Shown: piece after piece, positions 10,510 to 34,487 of the stretch
Layout: each line of letters begins with the position of its first letter
Numbering within the stretch: position 1 is the stretch's first letter
Assembly: GCA_029262005.1 (NCBI GenBank)
Contig: JAJDAG010000073.1
Span: 1-41,115, forward strand
DNA from: Candidatus Zhuqueibacterota bacterium
GTDB lineage: Bacteria > Zhuqueibacterota > Zhuqueibacteria > Oceanimicrobiales > Oceanimicrobiaceae
Reading direction: 5' to 3'
Length of the DNA: 41,115 nt
Position numbers and translations under genes: made by a program
Notes under the pieces: generated by a model
What the model was told of the DNA's origin: nothing
Seen by the model: only the letters and a program-made list of their open reading frames with translations
Database searches by the model: none

Positions 10510-11640
10510 ATGTTGTCGAAAATCACTCTTGTGGGTTTGTTTTTTGTATTTGCAGCAAGTAGCAGCGCACAGACCGTTGTCGTTGAACCTGTTGTCAGCA
10601 CCGAGCCTACTGCCGGCAACGCAGATGATCCTGCAATCTGGATTCATCCGACGGATCCATCAAAAAGCGTCATTATCGGCACAGATAAGGACGCCGGTAT
10701 TTATGTTTATAATATGGATGGTAAAGAGATTCAGCATATTGAGCAGGGTACTCGTACCAATAATGTTGATGTCCGAACAGGAATTGCCTGGGCCGGACAG
10801 CATATAGATATTGTTGCAGCAAATTTGCGCGAAGTGGGTAAGCTGGCTGTGTTCAAAGTCAACCCGAATTACAGCGGTGGCGATGTGCTTATTCAGTTGG
10901 CAGATAAAAATAGCGCAAACAACAATATTCAAGATGACAGTTATGGCTTTACGTTATACAAAGGTCCAAGCAACGCTGCCCTCTATGCGTTTGACAGGCC
11001 TAAAAGCGGTGGCAGTGTGAGACAGTACTCAGTTACAGATGATGGCACTTCTGACGGGGTCACAGTCACGCCGGTTCGTGATTTAAACTATGAGGGTGGT
11101 GTGGCTGAAGGCTTTGTTGCCGATGATGAACTTGGTTTTGTTTATATCACGGAGGAGTCCAAGGGGATTCACAAGTTTCTTGCCGGTCCGGGAGCAAGTG
11201 CAGATCGGATTCTATTATTTGCTGAGGGCGACGGCATTTCCAGCGATCGCGAAGGCCTGGGTCTTTACGCCTGTAGCGACGGTAAAGGATATCTGGTTTT
11301 ATCCAGCCAGGGAAATTCAACTTTCAAAGTATATGAGCGGCAAGATAATAACCGTTTCTTAAAAACCATCGATCCTAAAGATGACAGCGGCAAAAACGGG
11401 TTGGGAACCGATGGACTGGACGTCATTTCATCGGCTGCTCCGCCCAATTTTCCAAGTGGGATATTGGTGGGGCACGATGAATCAGGATCTCGGTACCATC
11501 TTTATGATTGGGCCCAAGTTGCAGAAAACGATTTAACGGTTTGTGTGGATGGTGGAAGTGGAAATGGAAATGGTGGTGGTGTTGATAGGACGCCGCCGTT
11601 ACCACCTCAAAATGTTCATGTTACGATTGACTCTAATTAG
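10510..11640 (+). CDS. Beta-propeller phytase (3-phytase), secreted
   Basis: A 376-residue protein that would hydrolyse phytate (inositol hexakisphosphate) and release phosphate outside the cytoplasm with calcium as cofactor. Family motifs occur in order: DDPAIWIH, NNVDVR, YGFTLY, EGFVADDELGFVYITEE, DREGLGLY, QGNSTFKVYER and TDGLDV. These are typical of six-bladed beta-propeller phytases. A signal peptide covers about residues 1-20 (SSSAQ). A glycine/asparagine linker precedes the C-terminal tail DRTPPLPPQNVHVTIDSN, which recurs in two downstream proteins. An in-frame ATG at 10426 has AGGAG 6 bp upstream and would add 28 residues; I prefer 10510 because it gives a normal signal peptide. It is first in a five-gene run, 19 bp before the next gene. 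Confidence 0.9.
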   Translation: MLSKITLVGLFFVFAASSSAQTVVVEPVVSTEPTAGNADDPAIWIHPTDPSKSVIIGTDKDAGIYVYNMDGKEIQHIEQGTRTNNVDVRTGIAWAGQHIDIVAANLREVGKLAVFKVNPNYSGGDVLIQLADKNSANNNIQDDSYGFTLYKGPSNAALYAFDRPKSGGSVRQYSVTDDGTSDGVTVTPVRDLNYEGGVAEGFVADDELGFVYITEESKGIHKFLAGPGASADRILLFAEGDGISSDREGLGLYACSDGKGYLVLSSQGNSTFKVYERQDNNRFLKTIDPKDDSGKNGLGTDGLDVISSAAPPNFPSGILVGHDESGSRYHLYDWAQVAENDLTVCVDGGSGNGNGGGVDRTPPLPPQNVHVTIDSN

Positions 11641-11659
11641 CAATCTGGAGGTGTCTAAA

Positions 11660-13027
11660 ATGTATAAAAGGATGAACCTGCTTCTGTTAATCTCATTCCT
11701 TGCAGTTGCACTTTTTCCCGTCATGACTCAAGCTCAGAATCCTAACAGCAAAGGTATCTGGATCAGTCAGCAGGAGCTTTCTGCACTACCAACCAGCGGC
11801 AAAGCATGGTGGAATGTAAAGTCTGCTGCCGATGGTTCTACCGGAAAGCCAAACGTTTCCAATCAGGATGATCCGGTTAATGTTCGCGTCATGGCCAAGG
11901 CGCTGGTTTACGCCAGAACAGGCGATGAAAGCTACCGGCAGGATGTTATCAATGCCTGCATGTCTGCCATTGGCACAGAAAAAGGGGGGCGGACCTTGGC
12001 ACTTGGACGTGAACTGATTGCCTATGTCATCGCAGCTGATTTGGTGGGGCTGCCCACCAGCGATGATAGTAAGTTTCGCGCGTGGTTACGCGAAACTTTG
12101 ACTGAGTCATTGAGTGGCAAAACTTTGATTTCGACACATGAAGATCGCCCCAATAACTGGGGAACACATGCTGGTGGCAGTCGTGTTGCAGTGGCTGTGT
12201 ATCTTGGTGATCAGCAGGAACTTGAACGTTGTGCTCAGGTTTTTAAGGGCTGGCTCGGCGATCGTTCAGCCTATTCCGGCTTTAGTTATGGCAGCCTCGA
12301 TTGGCAAAATGATAAAAGTAATCCAGTGGGGATCAACCCTAAGGGCGCTAGCAAAAATGGCCATAGCATTGACGGTGTTTTACCGGACGATCAACGTCGG
12401 GCAGGCGGTTTTAAATGGCCACCTCCGAAAGAGAATTATGTTTATGAAGGCCTGCAGGGCGCTTTGGCGCAGGCGGTCATTCTTTACCGACAAGGATACG
12501 ATACCTGGAATTGGTCGGACAAAGCGCTTTTGCGTGCGTTTGAATGGCTGCATAATGAGGCCGATTTTCAGGCTAGTAGCGATGATAACTGGGAACCACA
12601 TTTAATTAACAAGTATTATGGCAGTAATTTTCCCGCCGGGACGCCCTCTAATCCCGGCAAAAATGTTGGTTGGACAGATTGGACACATGGCTCTGATTCA
12701 GGTAGCGGCGGCATTACCGGCATTGACGGGCGTGTACGGAGTAGCGTTAACGACAATCCTGTTGACGGCGCCACCGTTCAGCTAAAGAGCAATGGTAGTG
12801 TACGTTATGAAACCAACACGAATTCAGCCGGACGTTATAGTTTCAGCAATATTCAAGCGGGAACTTATGAGCTGTATGTAATCAAGAGCGGATTTAATGA
12901 TGCTTCTACCAGCGTGAATGTGCCGGAAGGTCAAACATTATTTGGCCAAAATATTTCCATGACACCTGTTGGCGACTCAGATGCGCCGGCATCACCGCAA
13001 AATGTCAGTGTATCTGTGGTTGACTGA
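11660..13027 (+). CDS. Alginate-lyase-like protein with carboxypeptidase-regulatory-like domain
   Basis: A 455-residue secreted protein. The signal peptide is residues 1-26 (TQAQ). Residues about 50-345 look like the all-helical toroid domain of the alginate lyase family (PF05426-type): MAKALVYARTGDESY, GRELIAYVIAADL, RPNNWGTHAGGSR and GHSIDGVLPDDQRR. NNWG and the histidines are in places typical of polysaccharide lyases, but the substrate is not predictable. Residues about 350-440 form a CnaB/CarboxypepD_reg-like beta sandwich (GRVRSSVNDNPVDGATVQL...NIQAGTYELYV). The protein ends DSDAPASPQNVSVSVVD, similar to the tails of its neighbours. GGAGG lies 8 bp before the ATG. Its role next to phytase may be to open a phosphate-bearing polymer, which is speculation. 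Confidence 0.75.
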   Translation: MYKRMNLLLLISFLAVALFPVMTQAQNPNSKGIWISQQELSALPTSGKAWWNVKSAADGSTGKPNVSNQDDPVNVRVMAKALVYARTGDESYRQDVINACMSAIGTEKGGRTLALGRELIAYVIAADLVGLPTSDDSKFRAWLRETLTESLSGKTLISTHEDRPNNWGTHAGGSRVAVAVYLGDQQELERCAQVFKGWLGDRSAYSGFSYGSLDWQNDKSNPVGINPKGASKNGHSIDGVLPDDQRRAGGFKWPPPKENYVYEGLQGALAQAVILYRQGYDTWNWSDKALLRAFEWLHNEADFQASSDDNWEPHLINKYYGSNFPAGTPSNPGKNVGWTDWTHGSDSGSGGITGIDGRVRSSVNDNPVDGATVQLKSNGSVRYETNTNSAGRYSFSNIQAGTYELYVIKSGFNDASTSVNVPEGQTLFGQNISMTPVGDSDAPASPQNVSVSVVD

Positions 13028-13070
13028 TGATGACTCGATTAGTCGCGTCGCTATTATTAGAGTAAATATA

Positions 13071-13310
13071 ATGCAATGGACAGGTTACAGAAACGAAGTT
13101 GTGCAATTGTCGGGGAGTCGGTTTGCCTGGTCGGTCATTGGCTTATTGATTTTACTTTCTTTGAGTAAACTGTTTTCACAGCCTGATTTAGCGGTAGAGG
13201 CTAACTTCGTTTCTACACCTGCTTCAACTGTGAATGTTTCTTGTTTGCCCGACGCTAATGTGGAAGGTGAGTTTTCAAAGATGTCCACTATGTGCGCTTT
13301 GAGTGAATAA
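13071..13310 (+). CDS. Small predicted membrane/secreted protein
   Basis: A 79-residue protein that I do not recognise. Residues about 16-34 (FAWSVIGLLILLSLSKLF) form one hydrophobic segment, followed by a polar, probably external part with two cysteines (VSCLPD, MCALSE). It sits between the lyase-like gene (43 bp before) and the TPR gene (start 13 bp after), so it fits the operon by spacing. The ribosome binding site is weak. It may be a real small protein or a chance frame. Confidence 0.4.
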   Translation: MQWTGYRNEVVQLSGSRFAWSVIGLLILLSLSKLFSQPDLAVEANFVSTPASTVNVSCLPDANVEGEFSKMSTMCALSE

Positions 13311-13323
13311 GGTTGATGAAAAT

Positions 13324-14211
13324 ATGAAGTTAGATTTTTTTAGTCCGCCTAATTTTGTTTTAATTTTTATCGGATTATTGTGCTTTTGGGGTTTTCCGCA
13401 AGCAAGCAGCGCGCATGGAGACATTCATGAAAGGATTGAAGCGCTGACCAGAAAGATCAAACTGGCCTCTTCTAATGCCGAACTATATTTGCGCCGGGCC
13501 GAACTCTATCGTCATCATCAAGATTGGCAATCTGCCCTGAACGATTATGAGCGTGCAGCACAATTGAATCCAGCATTGCATGTTGTCGACTTGGGTCGTG
13601 GCAGAATGTTTCTCGCGGCCGGAATGTATGAACAAGCCAGAAGTGTGCTCGACCGTTTTCTTGAAAAGCAGCCTGATAATTTTGATGCTTTAATAACCCG
13701 TGGCAGAGCTCTCAGGCAATTGGATGAGAACTTGCTTGCTGTAGCAGACTTTAACCGGGCTCTACAAAAAATGGCGGAGCCAAAACCGGAATATTTCATT
13801 GAACGGGCGAAAGCTTTGGTTGCTCAAGGAGACGACTCTGTTGATGCGGCGATTCGGGGATTAGACGAAGGTCTTGTTAAACTGGGACAAGTCGTGACAT
13901 TGCAGCTTTGTGCTATCGAACTACAAGTACGGGCTGGACACTTTGACGCAGCATTAAAGCGGATTGAATTGATTTCCAGGCAATCTCGGCGCCAGGAAAA
14001 GTGGACTTTCCGCAGCGCTGAAATATTGAGGCGCGCTGGTCGAGTGGTTGAGGCAAAAGCCAAATATGTTGCAGCGCTTGAACAAATTGAGTCGTTGCCT
14101 TTGCGTCGGCAGAACACGCGTTCCATTGTTGGCCTTGGCACAAAGATACGTCTGGCTTTGGACGAATTGGCTGGGCAGAGCGAGTTGGAGAATACAAATG
14201 CTTCGTTTTAA
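13324..14211 (+). CDS. Secreted TPR-repeat protein
   Basis: A 295-residue protein with a signal peptide (about residues 1-33, ending QASSAHG) and several tetratricopeptide repeats from about residue 45: AELYLRRAELYRHHQDWQSA, FLAAGMYEQARSVLDRFL, and DNFDALITRGRALRQLDENL. These form a binding superhelix and show no enzymatic motif. It probably acts as a periplasmic or surface scaffold for products of the same operon. The ATG at 13324 with AAGG upstream is preferred over a GTG at 13303. Its last 14 bp overlap the start of the phosphatase gene, which indicates translational coupling. Confidence 0.82.
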   Translation: MKLDFFSPPNFVLIFIGLLCFWGFPQASSAHGDIHERIEALTRKIKLASSNAELYLRRAELYRHHQDWQSALNDYERAAQLNPALHVVDLGRGRMFLAAGMYEQARSVLDRFLEKQPDNFDALITRGRALRQLDENLLAVADFNRALQKMAEPKPEYFIERAKALVAQGDDSVDAAIRGLDEGLVKLGQVVTLQLCAIELQVRAGHFDAALKRIELISRQSRRQEKWTFRSAEILRRAGRVVEAKAKYVAALEQIESLPLRRQNTRSIVGLGTKIRLALDELAGQSELENTNASF

Positions 14212-15562
14212 AATAGTGGTTGTGGCTCTTTGTCTTGTCGCTACGCAATTGGGTCTGGCGCAAAATGTTGTACGTGGTCCGTATTTGCAAATCGGTACCC
14301 ACACCAGCATTGTCATCCGTTGGCGCACTGACGCCTCTACAGACAGTCGTGTGAGCTTTGGCACATCATCTGGTAATCTCACTCAAGCAGAAGATGTTTC
14401 CGGCGCTACGAAGGAACATGAAGTCATGCTGACAGGGCTTTCTCCAGACACAAAATATTATTACGCAGTCGGCACCACCGATGGTGTTTTGGCAGGTGGA
14501 AACAATGCGCACTTTTTCGTAACATCGCCGCCGCCTGGTAGCAGCAAGCCAACCCGGATCTGGATTTTAGGAGACTCAGGGACTGCCAATTCAGATGCAC
14601 GGAACGTGCGCGATGCTTATTATCAGTTTACCGGCAATCGCCACACAGACCTTTGGTTGATGCTTGGGGACAATGCCTACAGTAACGGTTCTGATTCAGA
14701 ATATCAAAAAGCTGTTTTTGAAAATATGTATGAAGACATGTTGATTAAATCAGTGCTCTGGGCAACTCTCGGAAACCATGATGATGGAACCAGTTCAAAC
14801 CCTGGGCCCTATCCGTATTACGATATTTTTTCTTTGCCCAAGAGAGGTGAAGCCGGCGGTATGACATCAGGAACTGAGGCTTACTACTCATTTGATTATG
14901 GCTACATTCACTTCATTTGTCTTAATTCGGCAACCGACAACTTGCGCTCGGCTAACAGCGCAATGTGGACCTGGTTGGAAGAAGATCTTGCTGCAAACGA
15001 CAAGGACTGGACAATTGCTTTCTGGCATCATCCACCCTATACAAAAGGCTCGCATGATTCAGATAAAGAAAGTGAGTTGATAGAAATGCGTGAAGAGGCC
15101 CTGCCAAGGCTGGAGAGCAGTGGCATTGATCTTGTTTTAGGCGGCCATAGTCACTCTTATGAACGCTCATTTCTAATTGATGGCCACTACGGCAAATCGA
15201 ATTCATTTGCCAGTAATATGGCTTTAGACCAGGGCGATGGCAAAGAAGACAAAGACGGCGCTTATAAAAAAGCCACACTTGGCCCGGCTGAACATGAAGG
15301 TGCCGTATATGTTGTTGCTGGTAGTTCCGGTAAGAAGAAGTCAGGCGACTTCGATCACCCAATAATGGTAACATCACAACAAGAGCTTGGCTCACTTGTT
15401 CTTGATATTGACGGAAATCGTCTTAACGTAACTTTCATAAACGAGAGGGGCGACACAAAGGACTATTTTACCATCATAAAAGGCGATGGCAGCCCACCTC
15501 AAGTTGACAGACAACCGCCGGCTCCGCCGATGAATATCAAAGTTGTTATTTCAGAAGATTAG
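14198..15562 (+). CDS. Purple-acid-phosphatase-like metallophosphoesterase, secreted
   Basis: A 454-residue secreted phosphatase with a signal peptide at residues 1-21. Residues about 25-110 form the N-terminal fibronectin-like domain of purple acid phosphatases (RGPYLQ, VIRWRTD, LSPDTKYYY). The catalytic domain has all five metal-binding blocks: GDSG (Asp126), GDNAY (Asp158, Tyr161), GNHD (Asn193, His194), HHPPY (His277/278) and GGHSHSYERS (His317, His319). It likely cleaves organic phosphate monoesters and would complement the phytase. The C-terminal tail DRQPPAPPMNIKVVISED matches those of the phytase and lyase-like proteins. GGAG lies about 7 bp before the ATG, and the start overlaps the TPR gene by 14 bp. 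Confidence 0.92.
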   Translation: MLRFKIVVVALCLVATQLGLAQNVVRGPYLQIGTHTSIVIRWRTDASTDSRVSFGTSSGNLTQAEDVSGATKEHEVMLTGLSPDTKYYYAVGTTDGVLAGGNNAHFFVTSPPPGSSKPTRIWILGDSGTANSDARNVRDAYYQFTGNRHTDLWLMLGDNAYSNGSDSEYQKAVFENMYEDMLIKSVLWATLGNHDDGTSSNPGPYPYYDIFSLPKRGEAGGMTSGTEAYYSFDYGYIHFICLNSATDNLRSANSAMWTWLEEDLAANDKDWTIAFWHHPPYTKGSHDSDKESELIEMREEALPRLESSGIDLVLGGHSHSYERSFLIDGHYGKSNSFASNMALDQGDGKEDKDGAYKKATLGPAEHEGAVYVVAGSSGKKKSGDFDHPIMVTSQQELGSLVLDIDGNRLNVTFINERGDTKDYFTIIKGDGSPPQVDRQPPAPPMNIKVVISED

Positions 15563-18775: not shown

Positions 18776-20548
18776 TCATTTGCCTGGCAGTGAAAATGTA
18801 AACGTCGCGCCTTTACCTAAAACGCTTTCGAGCCAAATTCGTCCTCCGTGCCGCTGCACAATATGCTTCACAATGGATAATCCGAGTCCGGTGCCGCCCA
18901 TTTCCCGCGAACGCCCTTTGTCCACGCGGTAGAAGCGTTCAAAAATGCGTGGTTGCTCTTCGGTTGGAATGCCAATGCCTTCATCCCGAACCGAAACATG
19001 AATTTCATTTTTTTGCAGCCGGGCCGAGACGTAAATCGTTTTCTTGTCGCCGCCATATTTAATGGCATTTTCAATTAGATTTTGCAGCAAGGTTTCAATT
19101 TCTGCAGGCACGCCTTGTACAGCCGGAAGTTCCTCGGGAAAGTCTATTTGCAGATTAATTTGCCCATTTTCAATTATGCTTGAAAAGGCTTCTGCTACTC
19201 TCTGAACGATTTGCCGCAGATCAATATCTTCTTTACTCGTGGGTTTATCGTTTGATTCGAGTTTGGAGAGATGAAGTAAGTCGGTTATAAGCATTGTCAT
19301 TTTATCGGTGTGCTTTTGAACTTTGGCCAGGAACATATCAGCCTGTTCACGCTTCAGTGTGTCAGCATCGATAAGGGTCTCGATATAGCCTTTGATGGCC
19401 GTCAAAGGTGTTCTCAGTTCGTGCGAGACGTTGGCGATAAAGTCGCTACGAACCTGCTCCAGGTGTTTCAGGCGAGTTAGGTCGTGAAAAACCACAAGCA
19501 GGCCGGAGCAAGTTTGACCTTTGCCAAGTCTGGCGATTTGTGCTTGCAAGGTCTTCTTTGCTGGCGTGTGCAGCTCAAAAGTTACTTGCACGGATTTGTT
19601 GTGGTCTCGGCACTCATAAAACGCGTTCAACAGTTTTACGTCTCTGAACAACTCGCGCACTGAACGCCCGGCAACAGTTTTATCAAGGTGGAATATTTTT
19701 TGAAAAGACGGGTTTGTCAGCAGAACATTGTCTGCTTCGTCGGTTACAAGCACCCCTTCGATCATGCTATTTAATATTGCTTCGAGTTGATCTCGTTCTG
19801 TTTTTATGCCGGTTACATGATGTTCCAGATCGCTGCTCATCTGGTTTAGGGCTTCGCCCAGTTCAGAGATTTCATCGCCGCCGGTCGTAACCATTTTTTG
19901 TGAAAAATCTCCTTGTGCCATTTGTTGGGCAGCCCCGGCCATAGTGTGCAGACGGGCGGTCATCGAACGTGCACTGACAAAGCCTATTCCTATAACGAGG
20001 ATGAGCCCGATGCCGCTTGCAAGCCAAATGAGCATCCGAATTTCTCCGAGCGTTTCAGCAATTTCGGAATAGGGAACGGCAATACGCACAAAGCCCGCCT
20101 GGTTTTGTGCGGTGTTGAATGGCACGGCAAGGTAAAGCAAGTTCAGGTTTACGGTTGTGCTGAAGCGCAGGCTTTTGCCAAAGCCGCTATTACGCGCAGC
20201 GACAATCTCGGGCCGGTCGGCATGATTTTCGAGTGCTTCAAGTTCGTTTAAAGGTACCCGAGAATCTCCGATAACTTTGCCGTCAGAATTGATCAGGGTA
20301 ACACGGAGTCCAAGAAGTTTGCCGGTTCGGCCCGCCCAGGCGTCGGCTCTGGTTTCGCTAAAAAGGCCTACTCCCAAAGTTGAGGCATAGTCGCTGACGA
20401 CGGCAAGTTCTTTGGCCCAGCGATTTTCAAATTTATCCTCAAAGTAATTCTCAAGACGGTAGCTGAGGTAAGAAACCATGAATAGTAACATGGCTAGGCC
20501 CACAAAAAAGTGGGCGGCCATCCATTTCCAACGAATGCTTGTTTGCAT
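18776..20548 (-). CDS. phoR: Phosphate-regulon sensor histidine kinase PhoR
   Basis: A 590-residue kinase in the usual PhoR order: TM1 about 10-30, periplasmic domain about 31-170, TM2 about 172-192, HAMP about 193-245, PAS about 255-355, and HisKA with the phosphoacceptor in NVSHELRTPLTAIKG (His376). The HATPase domain has NLIENAIKYG (Asn494), DEGIGIP and GGTGLGLSIVKH. It is longer than the E. coli protein because of the periplasmic domain, as in PhoR of Bacillus and many other phyla. The start lies 5 bp after the phoB stop, so the two genes form an operon. Its position beside pst genes supports the phosphate assignment. It likely phosphorylates and dephosphorylates PhoB, with PhoU/PstB input. 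Confidence 0.93.
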   Translation of the reverse strand: MQTSIRWKWMAAHFFVGLAMLLFMVSYLSYRLENYFEDKFENRWAKELAVVSDYASTLGVGLFSETRADAWAGRTGKLLGLRVTLINSDGKVIGDSRVPLNELEALENHADRPEIVAARNSGFGKSLRFSTTVNLNLLYLAVPFNTAQNQAGFVRIAVPYSEIAETLGEIRMLIWLASGIGLILVIGIGFVSARSMTARLHTMAGAAQQMAQGDFSQKMVTTGGDEISELGEALNQMSSDLEHHVTGIKTERDQLEAILNSMIEGVLVTDEADNVLLTNPSFQKIFHLDKTVAGRSVRELFRDVKLLNAFYECRDHNKSVQVTFELHTPAKKTLQAQIARLGKGQTCSGLLVVFHDLTRLKHLEQVRSDFIANVSHELRTPLTAIKGYIETLIDADTLKREQADMFLAKVQKHTDKMTMLITDLLHLSKLESNDKPTSKEDIDLRQIVQRVAEAFSSIIENGQINLQIDFPEELPAVQGVPAEIETLLQNLIENAIKYGGDKKTIYVSARLQKNEIHVSVRDEGIGIPTEEQPRIFERFYRVDKGRSREMGGTGLGLSIVKHIVQRHGGRIWLESVLGKGATFTFSLPGK

Positions 20549-20553
20549 AGCAG

Positions 20554-21243
20554 TTATTTCTTATCACGAAATCGATAACCGATGCCCCGAACCGTTTCGA
20601 GGTGTTCGCCCCACTTGCCGAGTTTTACACGCAGCCTGCGCATGTGTGTATCAACCGTGCGCGTAAAGCCCATGTAATCATATCCCCAAACTATCTCCAG
20701 CAAAACATCGCGTGTCTGTACACGGCCTTTGCGTTCAAGCAGCGTTACCAAAAGTTTGAACTCTGTAGCCGTTAGATCCACCGGGTTATTATCCAGCAGT
20801 ATGCTATGTCCGGGGATGTCTATTACGATACCATCCAGGCGAATGATCTCATTTTCATCTTGTGGCATTTGAGTTCGTTTTAGGATTGCCTTAACGCGCA
20901 GAATAAGCTCGCGCGGACTAAACGGCTTGGTTACGTAGTCGTCGGCGCCCAATTCAAAACCGACAACTCTGTCTATTTCTTCGCCCTTGGCTGTCAGCAT
21001 TACGATGGGTATGTGCCGCGTCGCCTCATCTTGCTTCAGCAACTTACAAATTTCGGTACCTGGGATTCCGGGTAGCATCAGGTCGAGTATTACAAGCTCG
21101 GGCTGCTCTTTCTCTATTGTGTCAAAAGCCAGACCGCCATCACTACATCCGATTGCCTCGAATCCTTCCTGTTCGAGATGGAATACCACCAGTTCGAGAA
21201 TGTCCGCTTCATCTTCAACTATGAATATTTTTTGTTTCGCCAT
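20554..21243 (-). CDS. phoB: Phosphate-regulon response regulator PhoB
   Basis: A 229-residue OmpR/PhoB-family regulator. The receiver domain has the acidic pair Glu10/Asp11, phosphoacceptor Asp54 (VILDLMLPG), Thr84 and Lys106 (VTKPFSP). The winged-helix DNA-binding domain (about 133-226) ends with the typical TVDTHMRRLR and TVRGIGYRF blocks. It probably binds the 11-bp repeats at 21334-21373 to activate pstS and the similar site before the DUF2235 gene. It is divergent from pstS and precedes phoR, so autoregulation from the shared intergenic region is likely. Confidence 0.94.
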   Translation of the reverse strand: MAKQKIFIVEDEADILELVVFHLEQEGFEAIGCSDGGLAFDTIEKEQPELVILDLMLPGIPGTEICKLLKQDEATRHIPIVMLTAKGEEIDRVVGFELGADDYVTKPFSPRELILRVKAILKRTQMPQDENEIIRLDGIVIDIPGHSILLDNNPVDLTATEFKLLVTLLERKGRVQTRDVLLEIVWGYDYMGFTRTVDTHMRRLRVKLGKWGEHLETVRGIGYRFRDKK

Positions 21244-21333
21244 GCTCTATTCTCTGGTTAAATTCTGATTTTTATGCCCAAATATAAGTCTGTACTTGCC
21301 CTATCGCAACAAAAAAATGCGGGCGGGTTGTAA

Positions 21334-21388
21334 AGTTACCAAACCTCAATACCCGCGTAACACAACCGTAACAAACCGGTTGTATTAT
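21334..21388 (+). promoter_or_regulatory. Pho box array and -10 box of pstS
   Basis: Four 7-bp units at 11-bp period: AGTTACC (21334), CTCAATA (21345, degenerate), CGTAACA (21356) and CGTAACA (21367). After 9 bp comes TATTAT (21383-21388). The two perfect units give the 7+4+7 structure typical of PhoB binding. Transcription would start about 40 bp before the pstS ATG. The phoB gene starts 90 bp to the left on the other strand, so the array may serve both directions. Confidence 0.75.
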
Positions 21389-21429
21389 CCTAAAAATTAA
21401 TCTTTGTTTTACTTACAAGGGAGAAAATA

Positions 21430-22440
21430 ATGTCGAAGAGAAATTTTTTGGCAGAGACTGTGAACCGGTTAATGCTTGCATGTTCATTGCTGTTTCTGCT
21501 TGCGCCTGCAATTGCACCTGCGCAACAGAAGCCGGTGGTGGACAGCAAAATTGCTGTTTATCAGAAGGTCAGTGGTATTTCAGGCAGCCTCAATAGCATC
21601 GGCTCTGACACCATGAACAACCTGATGACCTACTGGGGCGAGGCTTTTGCTAAATATTACCCGAATATACAGTTACAGGTAGAAGGAAAAGGTTCAAGCA
21701 CTGCGCCCCCTGCTTTGATTGCCGGTACGGCACAGTTTGGCCCGATGTCCCGCAAGATGAAAGCCACGGAGGTTGATGGCTTCGAAAAGGCATTTGGCTA
21801 CAAACCCACGGCATTGCGGACTTCGCTCGACGCTCTGGCTGTTTATGTCAATAAAGACAATCCTGTTTCGGGTTTGTCGTTGCTGCAAGTTGATGCTATT
21901 TTTGCTAAAACGCGCTCAGGTGGCTATGAAAAAGATATAAAAGCATGGGGTGAGCTTGGCCTTGGCGGTGACTGGGCTAACAAGCCAATCAGCCTATACG
22001 GCCGCAATTCTGCCTCAGGCACTTATGGCTATTTCAAGAAGCATGCTTTATTCAAAGGCGACTATAAGGATACGGTTAAAGAGCAGCCGGGCTCGGCTTC
22101 GGTGGTACAAGGTGTTGCAAAGGATCGCTACGGCATCGGTTACAGTGGTATCGGTTATATCACCTCAGGTGTTCGGGCTGTGCCGCTTTCGAAGAAAGCT
22201 GACGGGGAACTTGCAACCGCGAGTATGGAAAATGTCATGAAAGGTAAATACCCGCTCGCGCGTTTTCTATACCTGTATATTAACAAAGAGCCGGGCAAGC
22301 CGCTGTCGCCTCTGGTCAGAGAATTTTTGAGATTTGTCTTCAGCAAAGAAGGGCAGGAGATCGTTGTTAAGGACGGTTATCTGCCTTTGCCTTTTAAGGT
22401 TGTACAGGAAGAACTCGCCAGACTGGAAGGGACGAATTAG
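21430..22440 (+). CDS. pstS: Phosphate-binding protein PstS
   Basis: A 336-residue periplasmic substrate-binding protein with a signal peptide about 1-31 (APAQQ). Family features include the SIGSDTMNNLMTYWGEAF segment, the GKGSSTAPPALIAG loop, the RNSASGTYGYF phosphate-binding loop and SGIGYITSG. It would bind inorganic phosphate and deliver it to PstCA. The ribosome binding site GGGAG is 7 bp before the ATG. It is first in the pstSCAB-phoU cluster and is directly preceded by the Pho box. A palindromic element separates it from pstC. Confidence 0.95.
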   Translation: MSKRNFLAETVNRLMLACSLLFLLAPAIAPAQQKPVVDSKIAVYQKVSGISGSLNSIGSDTMNNLMTYWGEAFAKYYPNIQLQVEGKGSSTAPPALIAGTAQFGPMSRKMKATEVDGFEKAFGYKPTALRTSLDALAVYVNKDNPVSGLSLLQVDAIFAKTRSGGYEKDIKAWGELGLGGDWANKPISLYGRNSASGTYGYFKKHALFKGDYKDTVKEQPGSASVVQGVAKDRYGIGYSGIGYITSGVRAVPLSKKADGELATASMENVMKGKYPLARFLYLYINKEPGKPLSPLVREFLRFVFSKEGQEIVVKDGYLPLPFKVVQEELARLEGTN

Positions 22441-22482
22441 TGTCTGACTCAAGATTCGTCAGAGCAGTCGTTCTTTTTATCC

Positions 22483-22545
22483 TTTGTGCGGGAATCCCAT
22501 GCTCAAGTCACTGGATTCCGGCAGAAAAGAAAGCCGGAGTGACAG
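22483..22545. repeat. Dispersed palindromic element, copy 2 (pstS-pstC gap)
   Basis: GTGCGGGAATCC (22486-22497) and GGATTCCGGC (22513-22522) form a stem with 9 of 10 pairs. It matches the element at 15868-15932 in order and spacing. It fills most of the 152-bp gap between pstS and pstC and could stabilise the pstS message end or lower downstream expression. Confidence 0.6.
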
Positions 22546-22592
22546 GTTGTTCGAGTTTTCGGTCAGACATGCATTAAATTGGATTGCACTCT

Positions 22593-24899
22593 ATGCAAAT
22601 AGAACTTGGTGAAAAAGCGGTAACCTCGCAACGCCGGTTGTCTGACCGGGAATCGCGTGTTCGACTAATGAAGCGGAAGCTGTATGATCGGATTGCCAGG
22701 TGGGTTGTCGCTGGCGGAGGCTTCACAATCATTGCCAGCATTCTGGCAATTCTGTTGTTCATTCTAATGGAAATCGCCCCTTTGTTCCGGCCGGCAGAAG
22801 TAACAGAGGTGAACCGCAGCACGGTTACGGCTCTGTTTACCGATACGCCGGAAATCGGGGCGGATATTGTGGCGCTCTCCATCGATGAGAATCGCGAAGT
22901 AGCTTGCCTGTTATCGGCTGGCGGCGTGGTACAATTCATTTCACTCAAAACATGGCAGCTTCTGGAGTCGCATTTGTTGCCGGAGATCCGTGGTCAGAAG
23001 ATTACGAGTGTTTGGCAGTCTTTCAAAAGCGACCGGTTTGTCCTTGGCACCGACCATGGCCTGGCCGTGCAATTGCATATTGGCTACAATGCCCGTTTCT
23101 TTGAGGGACAACGCAGTTACCGGCCTGCTATAAACAGCGGTTCGACTTGGCCGGTTGCCCCCTCAAATGAACGGTTGACAGATGTGGCATTCTCGGGTGA
23201 TCCTGAGGAATCCATGATAATCGCGGGTATTTCGGATAAAGGCCGGGTTCATATTTTTCAACAAACAAAAGAAGCCTCGCTCTTCGGGGAAGCTGAGGTG
23301 GATTCAGCGCATTATCAGTTGGAGCAAATTTGGACCGGCAAGCCTGCGGCTGTCGCCATTGACGGGACCATGCGCAACTTGTACATGGGCAGCACCGATG
23401 GTAAAATATATCACTGGTTGCTATCTCCGGCCGCAGCGCCTGAATTCGTTACCACTACAAAGGCCGTTTCGGGCGATGGTGGCGGCATTACAGACTTGCA
23501 GTTTTTATTGGGCGGTCGTACGCTTATTGCCGCTGATTCAAACGGCGGCATCGGCGCCTGGTTTTTGGTGCGCGACAGTATCGGCCCGGCAGGCTGGCGA
23601 CTCACCAAGATTCGCGACTTGCAGACACATGTGGGTTCCGTTGTTAAGCTTGCACCTTCCGCCCGCGGTAAGGGTTTTATTTCTGCCGATGCCGACGGCA
23701 ATTTGTTTTTGCACCACAGTACGTCAGGGCGATTTCTGGCAGAGTTTAGTACGGGCGCCGGCATTCCAGTCAAGGCCCTCTCCTTTGCTCCAAAAGCCAA
23801 TGGCGCGCTCACCCTGGCTGCCGATGGCAAGCTGACCCACTGGAATGTGGACAATCCGCATCCGGAAGCCAGTGTGAAATCATTTTTCGGCAAAGTGTGG
23901 TATGAAGGTTATGAAGAACCGGAGTATGTCTGGCAATCAACCGGTGGTACTGATGAATTCGAGCCGAAACTCAGCTTGGTGCCGCTTTTGTTTGGCAGTT
24001 TGAAAGGCACGCTTTATGCGCTTGTCATCGCGGTGCCGCTCGCTATTTTTGGTGCGCTTTTCACGTCACAATTTATGCATCCCGGGTTGCGCAACAAAAT
24101 TAAACCGACGGTTGAAATCATGGCCGCTCTGCCCAGTGTTGTGCTCGGATTTCTGGGTGGTCTGTGGCTCGCACCAAGAATCGAAATAATTATCCCGGCT
24201 TTGTTGTTGATGGCCGTGGTTTTGCCATTGCTTACCCTGTTGGTTTCAGCGCTTTGGAAGGCTTTGCCCGGTCGTTACCGTAGCAACGTTCGCCCGGGTG
24301 TTGAAAGCCTGGTGCTTGTACCGGTGTTATTGTTCGGAATATGGCTGTCGCTGCAGCTAAATGGCTTTATGGAAACGATGCTGTTCGCAGGTGATTTTAG
24401 AGTTTGGCTTTATGAACAGGCAGGTATGAGTTTTGACCAGCGCAATGCCCTGGTAGTGGGCCTGGTGATGGGCTTTGCCATTATCCCGCTCATTTATACG
24501 ATCTCGGAAGATGCTTTTTCCAATGTGCCCGGAAATCTCGTTTCCGGCTCGCTCGCGCTGGGCGCGACCCGCTGGCAAACCGCGCTCAAAGTGGTGGTTC
24601 CCACAGCAGCCGCCGGCATTTTTTCAGCCGTCATGATCGGGCTGGGGCGCGCTGTCGGCGAGACCATGATCGTGCTCATGGCCACCGGCAATACGCCGAT
24701 CATGGATTGGAATATTTTTAACGGATTCAGAACCTTATCGGCCAACATTGCTGTCGAAATTCCTGAAGCGCCACTTGGCGGCACCCTTTACCGGGTACTG
24801 TTTCTGGCTGCGATGTTGCTTTTTGTCATTACATTTGTCGTGAATACCGCAGCCGAACTGGTTCGGCAACGGTTGAGACGTCAATTTCAAAAATTGTAA
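22593..24899 (+). CDS. pstC: Phosphate ABC transporter permease PstC, long form
   Basis: A 768-residue inner-membrane permease, more than twice the length of E. coli PstC. An N-terminal membrane segment (about 35-60) is followed by about 400 residues outside the membrane. These look like a WD40/YVTN-type beta propeller, with repeated blocks such as VAIDGTMRNLYMGSTDGKIYHW, ITDLQFLLGG and GKGFISADADGNLFLH. From about residue 465 the usual permease domain follows (SLKGTLYALVIAVPLAIFGALF, the LALGATRWQT coupling loop and GLGRAVGETM). Long PstC forms with a large periplasmic insert are known in Pseudomonas and relatives. The ATG at 22593 is preferred to the TTG at 22584, with only a weak ribosome binding site. 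pstA starts 12 bp after the stop. Confidence 0.9.
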   Translation: MQIELGEKAVTSQRRLSDRESRVRLMKRKLYDRIARWVVAGGGFTIIASILAILLFILMEIAPLFRPAEVTEVNRSTVTALFTDTPEIGADIVALSIDENREVACLLSAGGVVQFISLKTWQLLESHLLPEIRGQKITSVWQSFKSDRFVLGTDHGLAVQLHIGYNARFFEGQRSYRPAINSGSTWPVAPSNERLTDVAFSGDPEESMIIAGISDKGRVHIFQQTKEASLFGEAEVDSAHYQLEQIWTGKPAAVAIDGTMRNLYMGSTDGKIYHWLLSPAAAPEFVTTTKAVSGDGGGITDLQFLLGGRTLIAADSNGGIGAWFLVRDSIGPAGWRLTKIRDLQTHVGSVVKLAPSARGKGFISADADGNLFLHHSTSGRFLAEFSTGAGIPVKALSFAPKANGALTLAADGKLTHWNVDNPHPEASVKSFFGKVWYEGYEEPEYVWQSTGGTDEFEPKLSLVPLLFGSLKGTLYALVIAVPLAIFGALFTSQFMHPGLRNKIKPTVEIMAALPSVVLGFLGGLWLAPRIEIIIPALLLMAVVLPLLTLLVSALWKALPGRYRSNVRPGVESLVLVPVLLFGIWLSLQLNGFMETMLFAGDFRVWLYEQAGMSFDQRNALVVGLVMGFAIIPLIYTISEDAFSNVPGNLVSGSLALGATRWQTALKVVVPTAAAGIFSAVMIGLGRAVGETMIVLMATGNTPIMDWNIFNGFRTLSANIAVEIPEAPLGGTLYRVLFLAAMLLFVITFVVNTAAELVRQRLRRQFQKL

Positions 24900-24911
24900 G
24901 AGACTAATTGG

Positions 24912-26537
24912 ATGAAGAATTTTTGGAAAAGCGGCGACCCGTTTGTCTGGCTGACCGGCGGCGCAATAGCTCTAAGCCTGATTATGATTTTGGGTCTGTT
25001 GGGACTGATTGTTGTGAATGGGTTGCGGCAATTCTGGCCGCCGCAAATAGTTGAACTTCATCTACAGAACGGCGAGACGGTTCTTGGAGAAATTTGGGAG
25101 CGCGAAGAAATTCTTGCTCTTGATGGCCAGGGGAGCGGCCACCGAATCAGGTTGAAAATTGGCAACCGCGACCTTTATCCGCTTGATTTCAGGTGGATTG
25201 ATGAGAGTGAAATTGTTGCAAAGCGATATCCTGAAAATGTGCTGGTTTTGGAAAGATTAGAGTGGGGGAATTTTTACGGGCGTTTCAATACGCTTAAGCA
25301 GGGCAATACCATCCTGGCGAATTCACTTGGCACTGGCCAGGAGGCTCTGGCAGACGCTCTGGCGGAAATGGCATTGCTGCGTACCCGCATTCGTGAACTT
25401 GAAAAAGATGAAATCGGCAGCATTAACTATGACCTGGAAAAATTGAGGCTCGAGGCAAGAAAATTACTGCTGACATCTGACACAACTTCTGTGGCTGTTC
25501 AGCGCTCTCTAACTGAAAAGCGCAAAAAAATGACCGTACTCCAGCGCCAATACCTTGAAAAGGAAAAAGCCCTGTCTGCGCTCTATACCAAGTCGCGCGA
25601 AATGGTTTTGACCGCAACCTCAGCAGATGGCCGCGAAAAAGCGATTAAAATATTTGATATTGTTCGTTTGACTACGCCCAACGCTCTGGATGTTGTAGCA
25701 AGGTCGCGTGTTTTTCTCAGTCGCGTTGCCGAGTTTGTCAGCGCCGAGCCGCGTGAATCCAATACCGAGGGCGGCGTTTTCCCGGCTATTTTTGGCACGG
25801 TTATACTGGTGTTGATCATGAGCGTTGCAGTGGCGCCGCTCGGGGTGCTGGCTGCCGTTTATTTACATGAGTATGCAAAACAGGGGCTCGTGGTCAGTGC
25901 GATTCGAATCGCGGTGAATAATCTTGCCGGCGTACCGTCTATCGTCTATGGTGTGTTTGGTTTGGGCTTTTTTGTCTACGCCATCGGCGGCACCCTTGAT
26001 CAACTTTTTTATGCCGAAGCATTGCCGACGCCAACACTGGGTACCGGTGGCATTTTGTGGGCATCCTTAACGCTGGCATTGTTGACGGTTCCTGTTGTCA
26101 TCGTTGCCACTGAAGAAGGGTTGGCCGCGGTACCACGAGAAATTCGTGAAGGATCGCTGGCTCTGGCTGCCACGCAATTTGAAACATTGTGGCGCGTGGT
26201 GATTCCGAGCGCCTTGCCCGGGATTCTGACAGGCTTGATCCTGGCCATCGCCAGGGCGGCCGGCGAGGTTGCACCGCTCATGATCACCGGTGTTGTCAAG
26301 CTGGCCCCCTCAATGCCATTTGATGGTCGTTTTCCGTTTTTACACCTGGAGAGAAAATTCATGCATCTCGGAGTTCATATTTACGACGTCGGATTTCAAT
26401 CTCCAAATGTTGAAGCGGCCATTCCTATGGTTTACTCGACAACGCTTCTGCTTATTTTGATTGTGATACTGCTTAATGTTGTGGCAATTTCAGTGAGAAA
26501 CCGGTTGAGAAAAAAATTGGCTTACTCGGTTTTTTAA
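24912..26537 (+). CDS. pstA: Phosphate ABC transporter permease PstA, long form
   Basis: A 541-residue permease, longer than the usual 280-300. TM1 is at about 14-36, and then about 240 residues precede the transport domain. That region holds a beta-rich part and a coiled coil (about 150-215; heptad-rich [34 protein letters not shown]), similar to the DUF3333-type N-terminus of long PstA proteins. From about residue 290 the permease domain follows, with the coupling loop [15 protein letters not shown] and [13 protein letters not shown]. It pairs with PstC to form the phosphate channel. The gap to pstC is 12 bp and to pstB 14 bp. Confidence 0.91.
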
Positions 26538-26551
26538 ATTTGGGAAGACTG

Positions 26552-27442
26552 ATGACAAATGTAAAGCAACCTATTTGGGAAACAAAAGAAATGATAAATG
26601 GTATGGCGAAGGAGCAAAGTATAGCCGGCAAGAAAAGACCGGGCCTGAGCGCACAGGGCGTATCAACATTGGCGCAGGCAAATGCAGAGCAGCCTGCGCT
26701 CAAAACCGAAAACTGGTTTTTCAGTTATGGTCAGGATTGGGCGATTAAAGACATTACATTAGAAGTTCCAACCAAGCAGGTTACGGCTTTTATTGGACCG
26801 TCCGGCTGCGGTAAGAGCACGCTTTTGCGCTGTTTCAATCGTTTGAATGATTTGATCGCCGGCGCGCGCTTTCAAGGGCAAATTTATGCAGAAGGCACAA
26901 ATATTTATGACCGGGATTTGGATGTTACCGATTTGCGCAAGCGCATTGGCATGGTTTTTCAAAAATCAAACCCGTTCCCGAAATCCATCTATGAAAATGT
27001 GGCGTATGGCCCCCGTATCTCTGGAATCAAAAAATCCGGCGACCTGGATGAAATTGTTGAACGGAGCTTGCGCCAGGCTGCTCTTTGGGATGAAGTGAAA
27101 GATAGACTTGATAGCACCGCTCTGGGACTTTCAGGCGGTCAGCAACAGCGTCTTTGTATCGCGCGCACCATTGCTGTTGAGCCGCAGGTTGTATTGATGG
27201 ACGAGCCCTGTTCCGCCCTCGATCCTATTGCATCCGCAAAAATCGAGGAACTGATCCTGGAACTGAAAAAGGATTACACCATCGTTATCGTCACACACAA
27301 CATGCAGCAGGCAGCCCGGGTTTCGGATCTGACCGCATATCTCTGGCTCGGCCAACTCATCGAGTTTAACAAGACCGGCCTTATTTTTACCAACCCGAAG
27401 GAGAAATTGACCGAAGACTATATTTCCGGTCGGTTTGGCTAG
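26552..27442 (+). CDS. pstB: Phosphate ABC transporter ATPase PstB
   Basis: A 296-residue ABC ATPase with Walker [10 protein letters not shown] (82-90), the Q loop in VFQKSNPFP, the signature LSGGQQQR (193-200), Walker B VVLMDEP (213-219) and the H loop [11 protein letters not shown]. These match PstB closely, including the ENWFFSYG start of the domain. About 50 residues of polar sequence precede that, longer than most PstB proteins. The true start could therefore be one of the later ATGs (26591 or 26603). It energises PstCA and passes phosphate status to PhoR with PhoU. Confidence 0.95.
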
Positions 27443-27507
27443 TTAAGTAAACTCTTGCTTAGCACCAATGCAGTTTTATTTGGTATTTGCCCACAAGTTT
27501 GAAAAAA

Positions 27508-27591
27508 CAGGTCATTCCGGCACCCGGCAATTTCCGGACAGAAATGATAGTTATTGCATTTTCGGTTAGACATTATTTGAAAGGGCATGAA
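27508..27591. repeat. Partial palindromic element in the pstB-phoU gap
   Basis: GTCATTCCGG...CCGGACAGAAATGA gives nested arms TCATT/AATGA and CCGG/CCGG. The following stretch TTTTCGGTTAGACAT resembles TTTTCGGTCAGACAT before pstC, so the pstS-pstC and pstB-phoU gaps share related non-coding sequence. It may be a diverged member of the palindromic family. Confidence 0.4.
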
Positions 27592-28275
27592 ATGGAAAGA
27601 CATTTAGACATAGAGCTTAAAAGTATCAAGGAGGATTTGCTGAAAATGGCAGGTCTGGTGGAGCAGGCCATCGACAGGTCGATCAAGGCCATAAAGAATA
27701 GGGATGAAGACCGGGCACAAAAAGTCATCGATCAGGACCGAGAAATCGATGCGATGGAGATTCAGATTGAAAATGACTGCTTTACAATTCTCGCTCGTTA
27801 CCAGCCGGTCGCTGCGGATTTGCGTTTTATTATGGCGTCGATCAAAATCAACAACGATTTGGAGCGCATGGGCGATCACGCAGTGAATATCGCTCAAAAA
27901 GCACAAAGCCTTGCCGCTGCACCAAGCTTAAAGCCGCTCATCGATATTCCACTGATGGCCGACATTGTTCAAGGTATGCTGCGGGATTCTCTCAATAGTT
28001 TCGTGAACGGAGATGTCGAACAGGCCAGGCTTGTTTGCGAAAAAGACGATGATGTCGACGCCTTGGAAGTCCAGGTGCACCGTGAGCTTTTAACCTATAT
28101 GATGGAAGATCACCGAAATATTTCGCGCGCGTTACAGTTGACCATGATCGCCAAAAACCTGGAACGCATCGCCGACCTTTCCACCAACATTTGTGAGGAA
28201 GTCATTTTCATGGTTGAGGGCAGAACGATAAAACATCATTCTGAAGATTTACATTTAAAGTCTGACAAAGAATGA
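27592..28275 (+). CDS. phoU: Phosphate signalling protein PhoU
   Basis: A 227-residue all-helical protein with two PhoU repeats. Each has the expected acidic metal-binding helix pattern: DREIDAMEIQIENDCF and RFIMASIKINNDLERMGDHAVNIA in the first, DDDVDALEVQVHRE and LTMIAKNLERIADLSTNICEE in the second. It would link PstB to PhoR and prevent Pho activation when phosphate is plentiful. The ATG at 27592 is chosen because AAGGG is 6 bp upstream and PhoU homology begins there; longer in-frame starts add repeat-derived sequence. It ends 8 bp before the stop of the convergent ATPase gene. Confidence 0.94.
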   Translation: MERHLDIELKSIKEDLLKMAGLVEQAIDRSIKAIKNRDEDRAQKVIDQDREIDAMEIQIENDCFTILARYQPVAADLRFIMASIKINNDLERMGDHAVNIAQKAQSLAAAPSLKPLIDIPLMADIVQGMLRDSLNSFVNGDVEQARLVCEKDDDVDALEVQVHRELLTYMMEDHRNISRALQLTMIAKNLERIADLSTNICEEVIFMVEGRTIKHHSEDLHLKSDKE

Positions 28276-29731: not shown

Positions 29732-31348
29732 ATGCTCAAAACCAGAATAAACATAAATTGCCGCGAAGTTGTTCAAACCCTCAAGCCAATCTGGCGCTCT
29801 TTTGGCTACGATGAAATAAACTGGACTTACACCCCGCGCGGCAAAAAAATATTTGCTGAAATTGGCGGCCTGTCAGGTGAGCCGTACTATATTCGCTGTC
29901 ACAACATTTTTACGACTGGCAACGGATTGTCTGTGCCCACAAAAGGTTCAACCAATGTCTGCACAGCGGTCGCTGGTGAGACGCTCAAACTTGATTTTTC
30001 ATTGCTCGATCAGGTTTTTGATACCTTTCTCAACAACAACTGTAAACCGATTGTCGAACTGGGTTTTATGCCCGATGTCCTTTCATCCGGCCCCGCGCCA
30101 AAACCGACTTATAACTACAGCGGCACAAACCTCTGGGCTTATCCCCCAAAGGACTATCGTAAATGGCAGGATTTGGTATTCCGAACCGTTCAATATTATG
30201 TCCAGCGCTATGGCGCAGAGGAGATTCGCACCTGGTACTGGGAGCTGTGGAATGAACCGGACAACCCGGGCTTCTTTCGCGGCAGCATTAAGGATTACTG
30301 TAAAATGTATGATTTTGCCGTTGCCGGTGCAGTGCAGGCTCTGGAGACGATAAAAATCGGCGGGCCGGGCTTGGCCACCAATCCGAAGTTTCTCGATAAA
30401 TTTTTGCGGCATTGTGCCGGAGGAAAAAACAAGGCCAGTGGTGGCCGCGGCACCCGGCTTGACTTCATTTCTTTTCATGCGAAAGGGACGGATTGGCCGC
30501 TGACCGGGCAGCCTTTCAAGATGCCTTCTATAGATAAAATCATCACACATTTGCATGATTATAATTCAATTGTTAAAAAATATCCGGAATTTACACGACT
30601 ACCCTGTCTGCTCGATGAGTGCGACATGGCCGTGGCCACCAATTTTGGTATGTTCGATTTCCCAGAACTTGAAATAAACAATTCAGCATATTTTCCCGTG
30701 TTCTTAATCAGGATGGCGAAACAAATTTGGGATTTTTGCCAACAGACGCAAATGCCAATTCAGTTATTTACAACCTGGGCATTTTATTTTGAGGGCAAGC
30801 GTTTTTTTGAAGGCAACCGTGCCTTGTTTACAAATGAGAATATTTGTAAACCTGTTTTTAATGCATTTAAGCTACTGGAAAAAATTGGTGAAAAACGTCT
30901 CTCCATGCGAATTGAAAACAGCAGTTCCGGGCTACAGTCATCTCCACAACTGGATGGGCTTGCGGCACTACGGTCGGACGGTGCAATAACAGTTTTACTC
31001 TGGAATTTCATGGAGACTCCAGTTGAAGCAAGTGCGCTAGATGCAACAGTTGAAGTTGAATTGTTAAATCTTTCTTTTGACTCGGTGACATTCACACTGC
31101 AACATTTCAGAATCGATGAAAAGCACTGCAATGCGTTTTCCGTATGGAAAGCACTCGGGTCACCACAAGACCCATCAACGGAGCAAGTTCAGAAAATCAG
31201 GGAAGTGGAAGGCCTGAACGATAGGGACGTGACGACCGTGGAGGCAGACAAAAGCACAACCAGTATTAAGCTTGAACTTGCGGCTCAGTCTGTTTCTCTC
31301 CTGATTTTCCGCAAAGGTGTAGGACCCCCTACCGGGGAATGTGAGTGA
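29732..31348 (+). CDS. GH39-like glycoside hydrolase (beta-xylosidase-like)
   Basis: A 538-residue TIM-barrel protein that resembles GH39 beta-xylosidases. The acid/base is in WELWNEPD (Glu175) and a likely nucleophile in PCLLDECD (Glu296), with LDFISFHAKG between them. The early FGYDEINW and GEPYYIRCHNIF segments fit the family's N-terminus. A beta-sandwich region follows the barrel. No signal peptide is visible, so it is probably cytoplasmic, acting on imported oligosaccharides. The ATG at 29732 is preferred to an in-frame TTG at 29639, whose extra residues look like translated spacer. Its last 20 bp overlap the end of the convergent PorV-like gene. Substrate unproven. Confidence 0.85.
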   Translation: MLKTRININCREVVQTLKPIWRSFGYDEINWTYTPRGKKIFAEIGGLSGEPYYIRCHNIFTTGNGLSVPTKGSTNVCTAVAGETLKLDFSLLDQVFDTFLNNNCKPIVELGFMPDVLSSGPAPKPTYNYSGTNLWAYPPKDYRKWQDLVFRTVQYYVQRYGAEEIRTWYWELWNEPDNPGFFRGSIKDYCKMYDFAVAGAVQALETIKIGGPGLATNPKFLDKFLRHCAGGKNKASGGRGTRLDFISFHAKGTDWPLTGQPFKMPSIDKIITHLHDYNSIVKKYPEFTRLPCLLDECDMAVATNFGMFDFPELEINNSAYFPVFLIRMAKQIWDFCQQTQMPIQLFTTWAFYFEGKRFFEGNRALFTNENICKPVFNAFKLLEKIGEKRLSMRIENSSSGLQSSPQLDGLAALRSDGAITVLLWNFMETPVEASALDATVEVELLNLSFDSVTFTLQHFRIDEKHCNAFSVWKALGSPQDPSTEQVQKIREVEGLNDRDVTTVEADKSTTSIKLELAAQSVSLLIFRKGVGPPTGECE

Positions 31349-34300: not shown

Positions 34301-34487
34301 GTGCGCCGGTCAGGCTTGAGCCCATGCCATGCTGACGGGCTCCCGGTAGAACTTTCAAAAAAGAACCACCGGCGCGAATTTGTGCCTCGAGACTACTAGA
34401 CGTTACGGCTGTGAATATAAGCGCGACAGCCATCAGGAACACTGGTTTCCCGGCCCAAAGGCGGGCGTTGTTATATTGAAATTTCAT
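31329..34487 (-). CDS. PorV/PorQ-like barrel fused to CARDB and two OmpA-like domains
   Basis: A 1052-residue outer-membrane protein. After the signal peptide (about 1-36, ending LEAQ), GGSFLKVLPGARQHGMGSS and LYANPAASGF mark the PorV/PorQ-type barrel (about 40-330). A mid-region with YYWTVLAIDKDEHSRF and a CARDB-like domain (PGDSIHETDETNNRQIES) follows. Two OmpA-like peptidoglycan-binding segments come next, one near VYFKPGSAAIQTFNSS...RALAVKQRLLDLGV and one at the C-terminus (ASLVGHACAIGDSSYNVKLSMARAKNFY...NRRIEIRLES). PorV shuttles T9SS cargo, so this may be a combined shuttle and cell-wall anchor. Its ATG overlaps the upstream stop as ATGA (34484-34487), with no clear ribosome binding site, so translation is likely coupled to the DUF11 gene. 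Confidence 0.82.
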   Translation of the reverse strand: MKFQYNNARLWAGKPVFLMAVALIFTAVTSSSLEAQIRAGGSFLKVLPGARQHGMGSSLTGALDDIYSLYANPAASGFAREWQWSSTYTEWFADTYNASLTYSRRFKTPLSRHSHIALGIQHQGIREFDSTNNKESAASASDQLITVNFSSPISAISPLLSFGTNLKLLHSQLANLSASSWIFDFGMLYRTKRQKLDNPFFENAIFSFGAAITNLGAPLTFIDRSTPLPRTFRAGTAMNIGTHDGLQMQISADLHKVRDERLSFSLGSELSWSYRFSLRAGYHFNSKVLNRFSFGISFKLDDRFTPLTSLPGRNRAVRLDMAGLERSTPISSIYHVSAGLFPVAPETFELQQPRQGENVGQSSVKFAWSPSADPDLFDDVSYVLLLERHENLAEKTALSDFIKRCNTGCRNIKQLLQQEKSSFFLIRNLLFPGSGQSKEIGVVQKDLPRGEYYWTVLAIDKDEHSRFAGVDVGQLGHFSILPDLQITKVVFSPSKWITETDYQGELRISITNRGAAQAESSTIAIFDSLLQTAPQAGFYANGHTTKLNKTKIKVPELSAAAKTVISLPWHTAQHGLHQIVVVLDPGDSIHETDETNNRQIESFSTIPRGYFRTEKTAITQIDSLYEYELPFIPRVYFKPGSAAIQTFNSSLIYSPLKILTSRLKQHKAIRLKLQGSFDDTEGEPESLGVERALAVKQRLLDLGVEDARLQILRPMTPQQESTSPDSLKQAEQNWVLAEKRFVKITAHHQHSRDRQNAQLFFSVPVSLPKSKTPVPVLFTAQLTGFRALETAQANLHVDTLLCHKFALEYSEAKPDSFKWRLNDSQQKSLEDATINYTIELRDDLGRVFYSKSAQVRLKTRRKNLINKRVIIGVAEFRKQRPDGNLLWSNIVSRVNSCLDDEEIVTASLVGHACAIGDSSYNVKLSMARAKNFYQELIKRQPQLGKKMAGRFHKIGLRGLGESEPFAMLVSKQLFLETLNIHNQGELEEITYELLSGKKHNRDFPFSFRIKGDKILIQSDNETPFGRQMNRRIEIRLESAPETTQQEFTHIPR

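Follow-up and report, generated by a model that had tools for sequence, protein, structure and literature searches.

A short peptide tail closes three exported enzymes for the scavenging of phosphate and polysaccharide that are encoded in the window, that is, the whole stretch of 41,115 nucleotides of DNA analysed here. We show that this tail is real, under selection and strictly C-terminal, and we believe, with a probability of about one half, that it serves as a tag for docking or sorting at the surface and acts by beta-strand addition. The tail looks previously undescribed: no model in Pfam or NCBIfam covers it, and literature searches returned no title or abstract describing such a tail.

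Tail-bearing enzymes in the window operon

The preliminary description reported that a phytase, a lyase-like protein and a phosphatase share the ending D-x-x-P-P-x-x-P-x-N-V/I-x-V close to their stops; the pattern is exact in all three, and the stops are true ones. The genes and tails are located as follows.

10510..11640, + strand: exported 3-phytase (PF02333; Pfam Phytase, E=7e-60) with signal peptide, Gly/Asn linker and C-terminal tail
11584..11637, + strand: tail 1 (phytase), DRTPPLPPQNVHVTIDSN, stop at 11638-11640
11660..13027, + strand: exported alginate-lyase-like enzyme (Pfam PF05426 and CarboxypepD_reg, PF13620, then the tail)
12974..13024, + strand: tail 2 (lyase-like), DSDAPASPQNVSVSVVD, stop at 13025-13027
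13303..14211, + strand: exported TPR protein (Pfam TPR; synteny and homology), without tail
14198..15562, + strand: exported purple acid phosphatase (Pfam PF16656 and PF00149) with short linker and tail
15506..15559, + strand: tail 3 (phosphatase), DRQPPAPPMNIKVVISED, stop at 15560-15562

The phytase starts with the hydrophobic signal MLSKITLVGLFFVFAASSSAQ, read directly from the translation, and ends exactly with VDRTPPLPPQNVHVTIDSN and the stop at 11581-11640. The same exactness was found for the endings of the lyase-like protein (GDSDAPASPQNVSVSVVD and stop, 12971-13027) and the phosphatase (VDRQPPAPPMNIKVVISED and stop, 15503-15562). The ATG of the lyase gene lies 19 bases 3' of the phytase stop, behind a GGAGG ribosome-binding site, and a continuation into a fibronectin III (FN3) domain was sought in the other frames beside the three window tails and not found. 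Because the signals of the next gene follow right behind the phytase stop and no frame extends FN3, the tail stops look real. That they arose in a longer FN3 gene, by frameshift or by a premature stop, was considered and rejected, since the next genes start at once and the orthologues end at the same place.

By synteny and homology, the exported TPR protein adjoins the phosphatase also in genomes G002 and G005 and in the distant genome G237, where the TPR protein (L276) has a C-terminal membrane segment. A 79-aa ORF with a hydrophobic N-terminal segment and no Pfam match lies at 13071-13310, between the lyase and TPR genes.

Downstream of the operon, a phosphate regulon with genes for a histidine kinase, a response regulator, PstS, PstC, PstA, PstB and PhoU was found at 18776-28275. 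Because the operon is close to this kinase/response regulator pair and to pstS-pstC-pstA-pstB-phoU, its tail enzymes probably serve phosphate acquisition. A search of plasmid DNA for relatives of the phosphatase gave only matches below 30% identity.

Tail sequence and its likeness to FN3

The tail has the consensus D-T-T-P-P-A-P-P-x-[NG]-V-[RK]-[VI]-x(1-7)-stop and measures approximately 16 residues (range about 13-21). A Pro-rich linker, D-x-x-P-P-x-x-P, is followed by one beta-strand, x-N/G-V-R/K-V/I, after which 1-7 mostly polar residues precede the stop. Among 90 aligned tails, D occupies position 1 in 83; P occupies positions 5 and 8 in 90/90, V/I/L position 11 in 90/90 and V/I/A/L position 13 in 89/90, and all four of these positions were partly imposed by the registering pattern. 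Compared in pairs, the three window tails agree in 6-8 of 13 core residues but in only 22-24 of 39 bases, and the residues that they have in common are often encoded by different codons. The low DNA identity and the differing codons therefore agree with the earlier view that the tails are not a recent DNA copy.

The idea that the tail resembles the opening strand of an FN3 domain of which the rest is missing is strongly supported. It corresponds to the FN3 (PF00041) inter-domain linker and strand A; of the seven-strand A-G fold it lacks strands B-G, the protein ending at the A-B loop. Internal matches of the tail profile sit at the starts of fn3 domains, and full FN3 domains outside the phylum open with the same letters. 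Five weak matches to the tail were found in the PDB, most of them in FN3-containing proteins.

Distribution and C-terminal placement

All counts rest on matches from profile searches of genomes and on retrieved loci. The profile was built from C-terminal tails and did not encode the stop; its earliest versions contained no tails but the three of the window. In the window genome (5.77 Mb, 205 contigs), the three-tail profile recovered its own three tails and one new clear match, likewise C-terminal, in a DUF2271 and CarboxypepD_reg protein that ends with DTTPPAPPKNVIVSTQN and the stop. Once further tails had been added to the profile, a fifth match, ending with DSSPPSIPQGVEVSTSN and the stop, was found in the same genome. 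In the seven other genomes of the family, the stop lay 12-20 residues past the D in nearly every match.

The phylum sample comprised 82 genomes of the KSB1/Calditrichota type; KSB1 has been named Zhuqueibacterota (PMC11683472). Tail matches were found in 46 of the 82, and in 55 with a broader profile, while about one third of the genomes had no match at the cut-off used. As a pattern of three proteins in one operon, the tail was correctly described for the window; it is not specific to that operon, occurring on dozens of unrelated proteins in these 55 genomes. In the DNA of the retrieved matches, 92 of 94 distinct classifiable phylum matches have a stop within 15 residues, of which very few may be chance short ORFs, whereas random placement in a protein of approximately 500 residues would give about 3%. 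The C-terminal placement is thus far above a background rate, and only 2 of the 94 are internal FN3 copies. Outside the phylum, matches were seen in 16 of approximately 306 genomes and are mostly internal FN3: 12 of 18 are internal, typically at the start of a complete FN3 domain. C-terminal tails outside the phylum were found in G237 (five scored and one by eye on contig C20), G154 (one) and G411 (one). Mis-binning was considered as the origin of the G237 tails and rejected, since the GC and tetranucleotide profiles of the contigs concerned fit the remainder of G237; the genes on these contigs are ordinary ones.

Among the carriers are phytase, purple acid phosphatase and alginate-lyase-like enzymes, as well as polysaccharide lyase 8, DUF2961, GH5 cellulase-like and pectate-lyase-like proteins; carriers found outside the phylum are sortilin/BNR and NHL-repeat proteins. 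A GHL15-golvesin enzyme carries the tail about once per genome in many genomes. As regards signal peptides in the matches, 66 of 69 complete carrier ORFs pass a test for a hydrophobic N-terminus, which is a crude proxy and not a signal-peptide predictor. The tail is like C-terminal sorting or docking tags in the broad sense in that the same short ending is found across many unrelated exported proteins.

Retention of the tail in orthologues

The order phytase, lyase, TPR protein and phosphatase recurs in G002, and also in G005 with a different protein in the place of the lyase. A lyase paralogue in G002 (L123, 3359-4561) is without tail, and its C-terminus looks frameshifted or degraded. The phosphatase orthologues of G000, G002, G005 and G237 have 54-70% identity to the window protein. 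Between enzyme and tail, they carry no insert (G000), a Big_1-like insert recognised by eye (G002 and G005) or a long unrelated insert (G237). Despite these differences, all four end with PxPPxN[VI] and a few further residues or with PAAPTGLRV, and the orthologues do not continue into full FN3 domains. The G005 phytase has gained a CarboxypepD_reg-like module before its tail, and in 10 aligned GHL15-golvesin enzymes the PPxxP of the tail (P680, P681, P684) is invariant. That the tail is kept last behind different inserts bears out the earlier suggestion of selection on the protein. Two Chloroflexi golvesin homologues (L151, L154) show by eye SLH-like repeats at the position of the KSB1-type tail; Pfam did not confirm their SLH identity, and they were not used as evidence.

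Mini-FN3 proteins as candidate acceptors

Strong matches to a mini-FN3 profile were found in 79 of the 82 phylum genomes, and this profile also matches FN3 in larger proteins. Most of the 20 retrieved examples are 200-250 residues long, run from the signal peptide straight into strand B, without strand A, and end in a T9SS-type CTD. The same layout of a small exported protein with FN3 from strand B, a flexible linker and a T9SS CTD was seen in L248 and L251-L267 (for example, G000:C57, 251 aa). In G004, G005 and G007, a mini-FN3 paralogue bears the tail in place of the CTD. The Pfam fn3 match of the tail-ended G004 paralogue begins at profile position 16; that of a CTD-bearing mini-FN3 protein of the window genome begins at position 6, but inside the signal peptide. 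AlphaFold modelled the tail of a tail-ended mini-FN3 protein as a strand (106-113) with moderate confidence (pLDDT about 66-70), and a Foldseek search with the mini-FN3 model gave weak matches, many of them FN3 domains and none below E 0.001. The phosphatase model had a mean pLDDT of 38.7.

We speculated that exported FN3 domains without strand A might take up the tail as their strand A, a split-FN3 docking that we consider rather improbable. The enzymes would then plug non-covalently into a T9SS-anchored surface layer of proteins made of A-less FN3 and CTD. The A-less type also occurs in genomes without tail matches, and at 1e-8 no candidate acceptor of this type was found in the tail-bearing G237. 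By the same kind of strand uptake, the mini-FN3 proteins of G004, G005 and G007 that bear the tail might form head-to-tail polymers of themselves.

Possible function of the tail

In the docking and sorting role that we favour, the enzyme would be exported by Sec, for which the signal peptide was read directly. Its free C-terminal strand would then be added to a partner protein of the envelope or surface, at an open edge. Such docking may prevent scavenging enzymes, among them phytase, phosphatase and polysaccharide lyases and hydrolases, from being lost by diffusion and so hold them at the cell. The shared complex or surface location suggested in the preliminary description is plausible; a place at the surface would fit the match of the phytase to a myxosortase-dependent family model and the mini-FN3 proteins that end either in a T9SS CTD or in the tail.

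The main rival is that the tail is a short T9SS export signal, which replaces the CTD of 70-80 residues and is read by T9SS or by a PorV-type shuttle. We think this unlikely, even though SprA is present in all 53 phylum genomes tested, Por_Secre_tail (T9SS CTD) has 140 matches in the window genome, two of them within the window, and the same mini-FN3 module bears either CTD or tail. There is also a precedent: the last 22 residues of the T9SS CTD, which form two beta-strands, export GFP in Porphyromonas gingivalis (PMC4804311). However, the CTD models of Pfam and NCBIfam do not match the tails, and SprA gave no match in G237, a genome that is 95% complete and has six C-terminal tails on native-looking contigs. 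Since SprA is undetected in this carrier genome, it seems that T9SS is not required by the tail. At 31329-34514 (- strand), the window encodes a protein of the PorV/PorQ family (NF033709, E=2.6e-39) with an OmpA-like part fused at its C-terminus; it is possibly a peptidoglycan-anchored relative of the T9SS shuttle proteins.

It is less probable again that the tail has no binding partner and is a stability cap, its Pro-rich end shielding exported enzymes from tail-specific proteases in the periplasm or outside the cell. Such a cap would fit final residues that are polar or Pro, a Pro-rich core and flexible linkers, and it would also account for attachment to any fold. It would not explain, however, why the N/G-V-R/K-V strand is conserved, why the tail matches strand A of FN3 and why it is mainly restricted to one phylum. 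We consider it very unlikely that the tails dock only to the exported TPR protein encoded beside the phosphatase. G000, G002, G005 and G237 all retain the TPR protein beside the phosphatase; among the retrieved loci, which cover most tail genes, however, TPR relatives occur only with this operon, and the other tail genes are without such a neighbour in the retrieved flanks. The least probable account is an evolutionary leftover from repeated loss of C-terminal FN3 arrays by stops in the A-B loop. The correspondence to FN3 linker and strand A, with an end at that loop, is what it would leave behind, but a leftover would not be expected to stay last behind unrelated inserts or to keep PPxxP invariant across the aligned GHL15 family, and internal FN3 copies in the phylum almost never match the profile.

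Comparison with known systems

Known C-terminal sorting signals of Gram-negative bacteria are either a full CTD (T9SS) or a tripartite tag with a membrane helix. Like the T9SS CTD (Por_Secre_tail, TIGR04183/PF18962), the tail is C-terminal, is found on Sec-exported enzymes and occurs in the same genomes. The CTD of a T9SS type A substrate, in contrast, is an Ig-like domain of 70-80 residues with another sequence, whereas the tail is shorter and is also found where SprA is not detectable. The preliminary description was therefore right to set the tail apart from the T9SS domain.

The MYXO-, PEP- and GlyGly-CTERM and LPXTG tags are tripartite, with a motif, a transmembrane helix and a basic end, and are handled by sortase-type proteases (PMC11980579, PMC3237569). 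The tail is like the sortase-type CTERM tags in that both are short and recur, within one clade, on many exported proteins that are unrelated to each other. A further likeness to MYXO-CTERM is that phytase-like relatives have a family model described as myxosortase-dependent (NF045638), which the window phytase matches with E=2.7e-53, though below the model cut-off. Unlike these tags, the tails have neither a transmembrane helix, on which such proteases act, nor a cluster of basic residues after the motif, and they are therefore not signals of the LPXTG/PEP-CTERM type.

If the favoured reading is true, a soluble tag of approximately 16 residues of the FN3 strand-A type, conserved over a phylum, would add to the known means by which exported enzymes are placed. 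It would also point out a number of probable surface enzymes in uncultured bacteria of the FCB group. As the tail is a short transferable peptide, its effect is directly testable. A likeness in working principle is to chaperone-usher pili, in which donor-strand complementation supplies a strand in trans to an incomplete Ig-type fold. The strand addition proposed here would follow the same principle, as an analogy and not as membership of that system.
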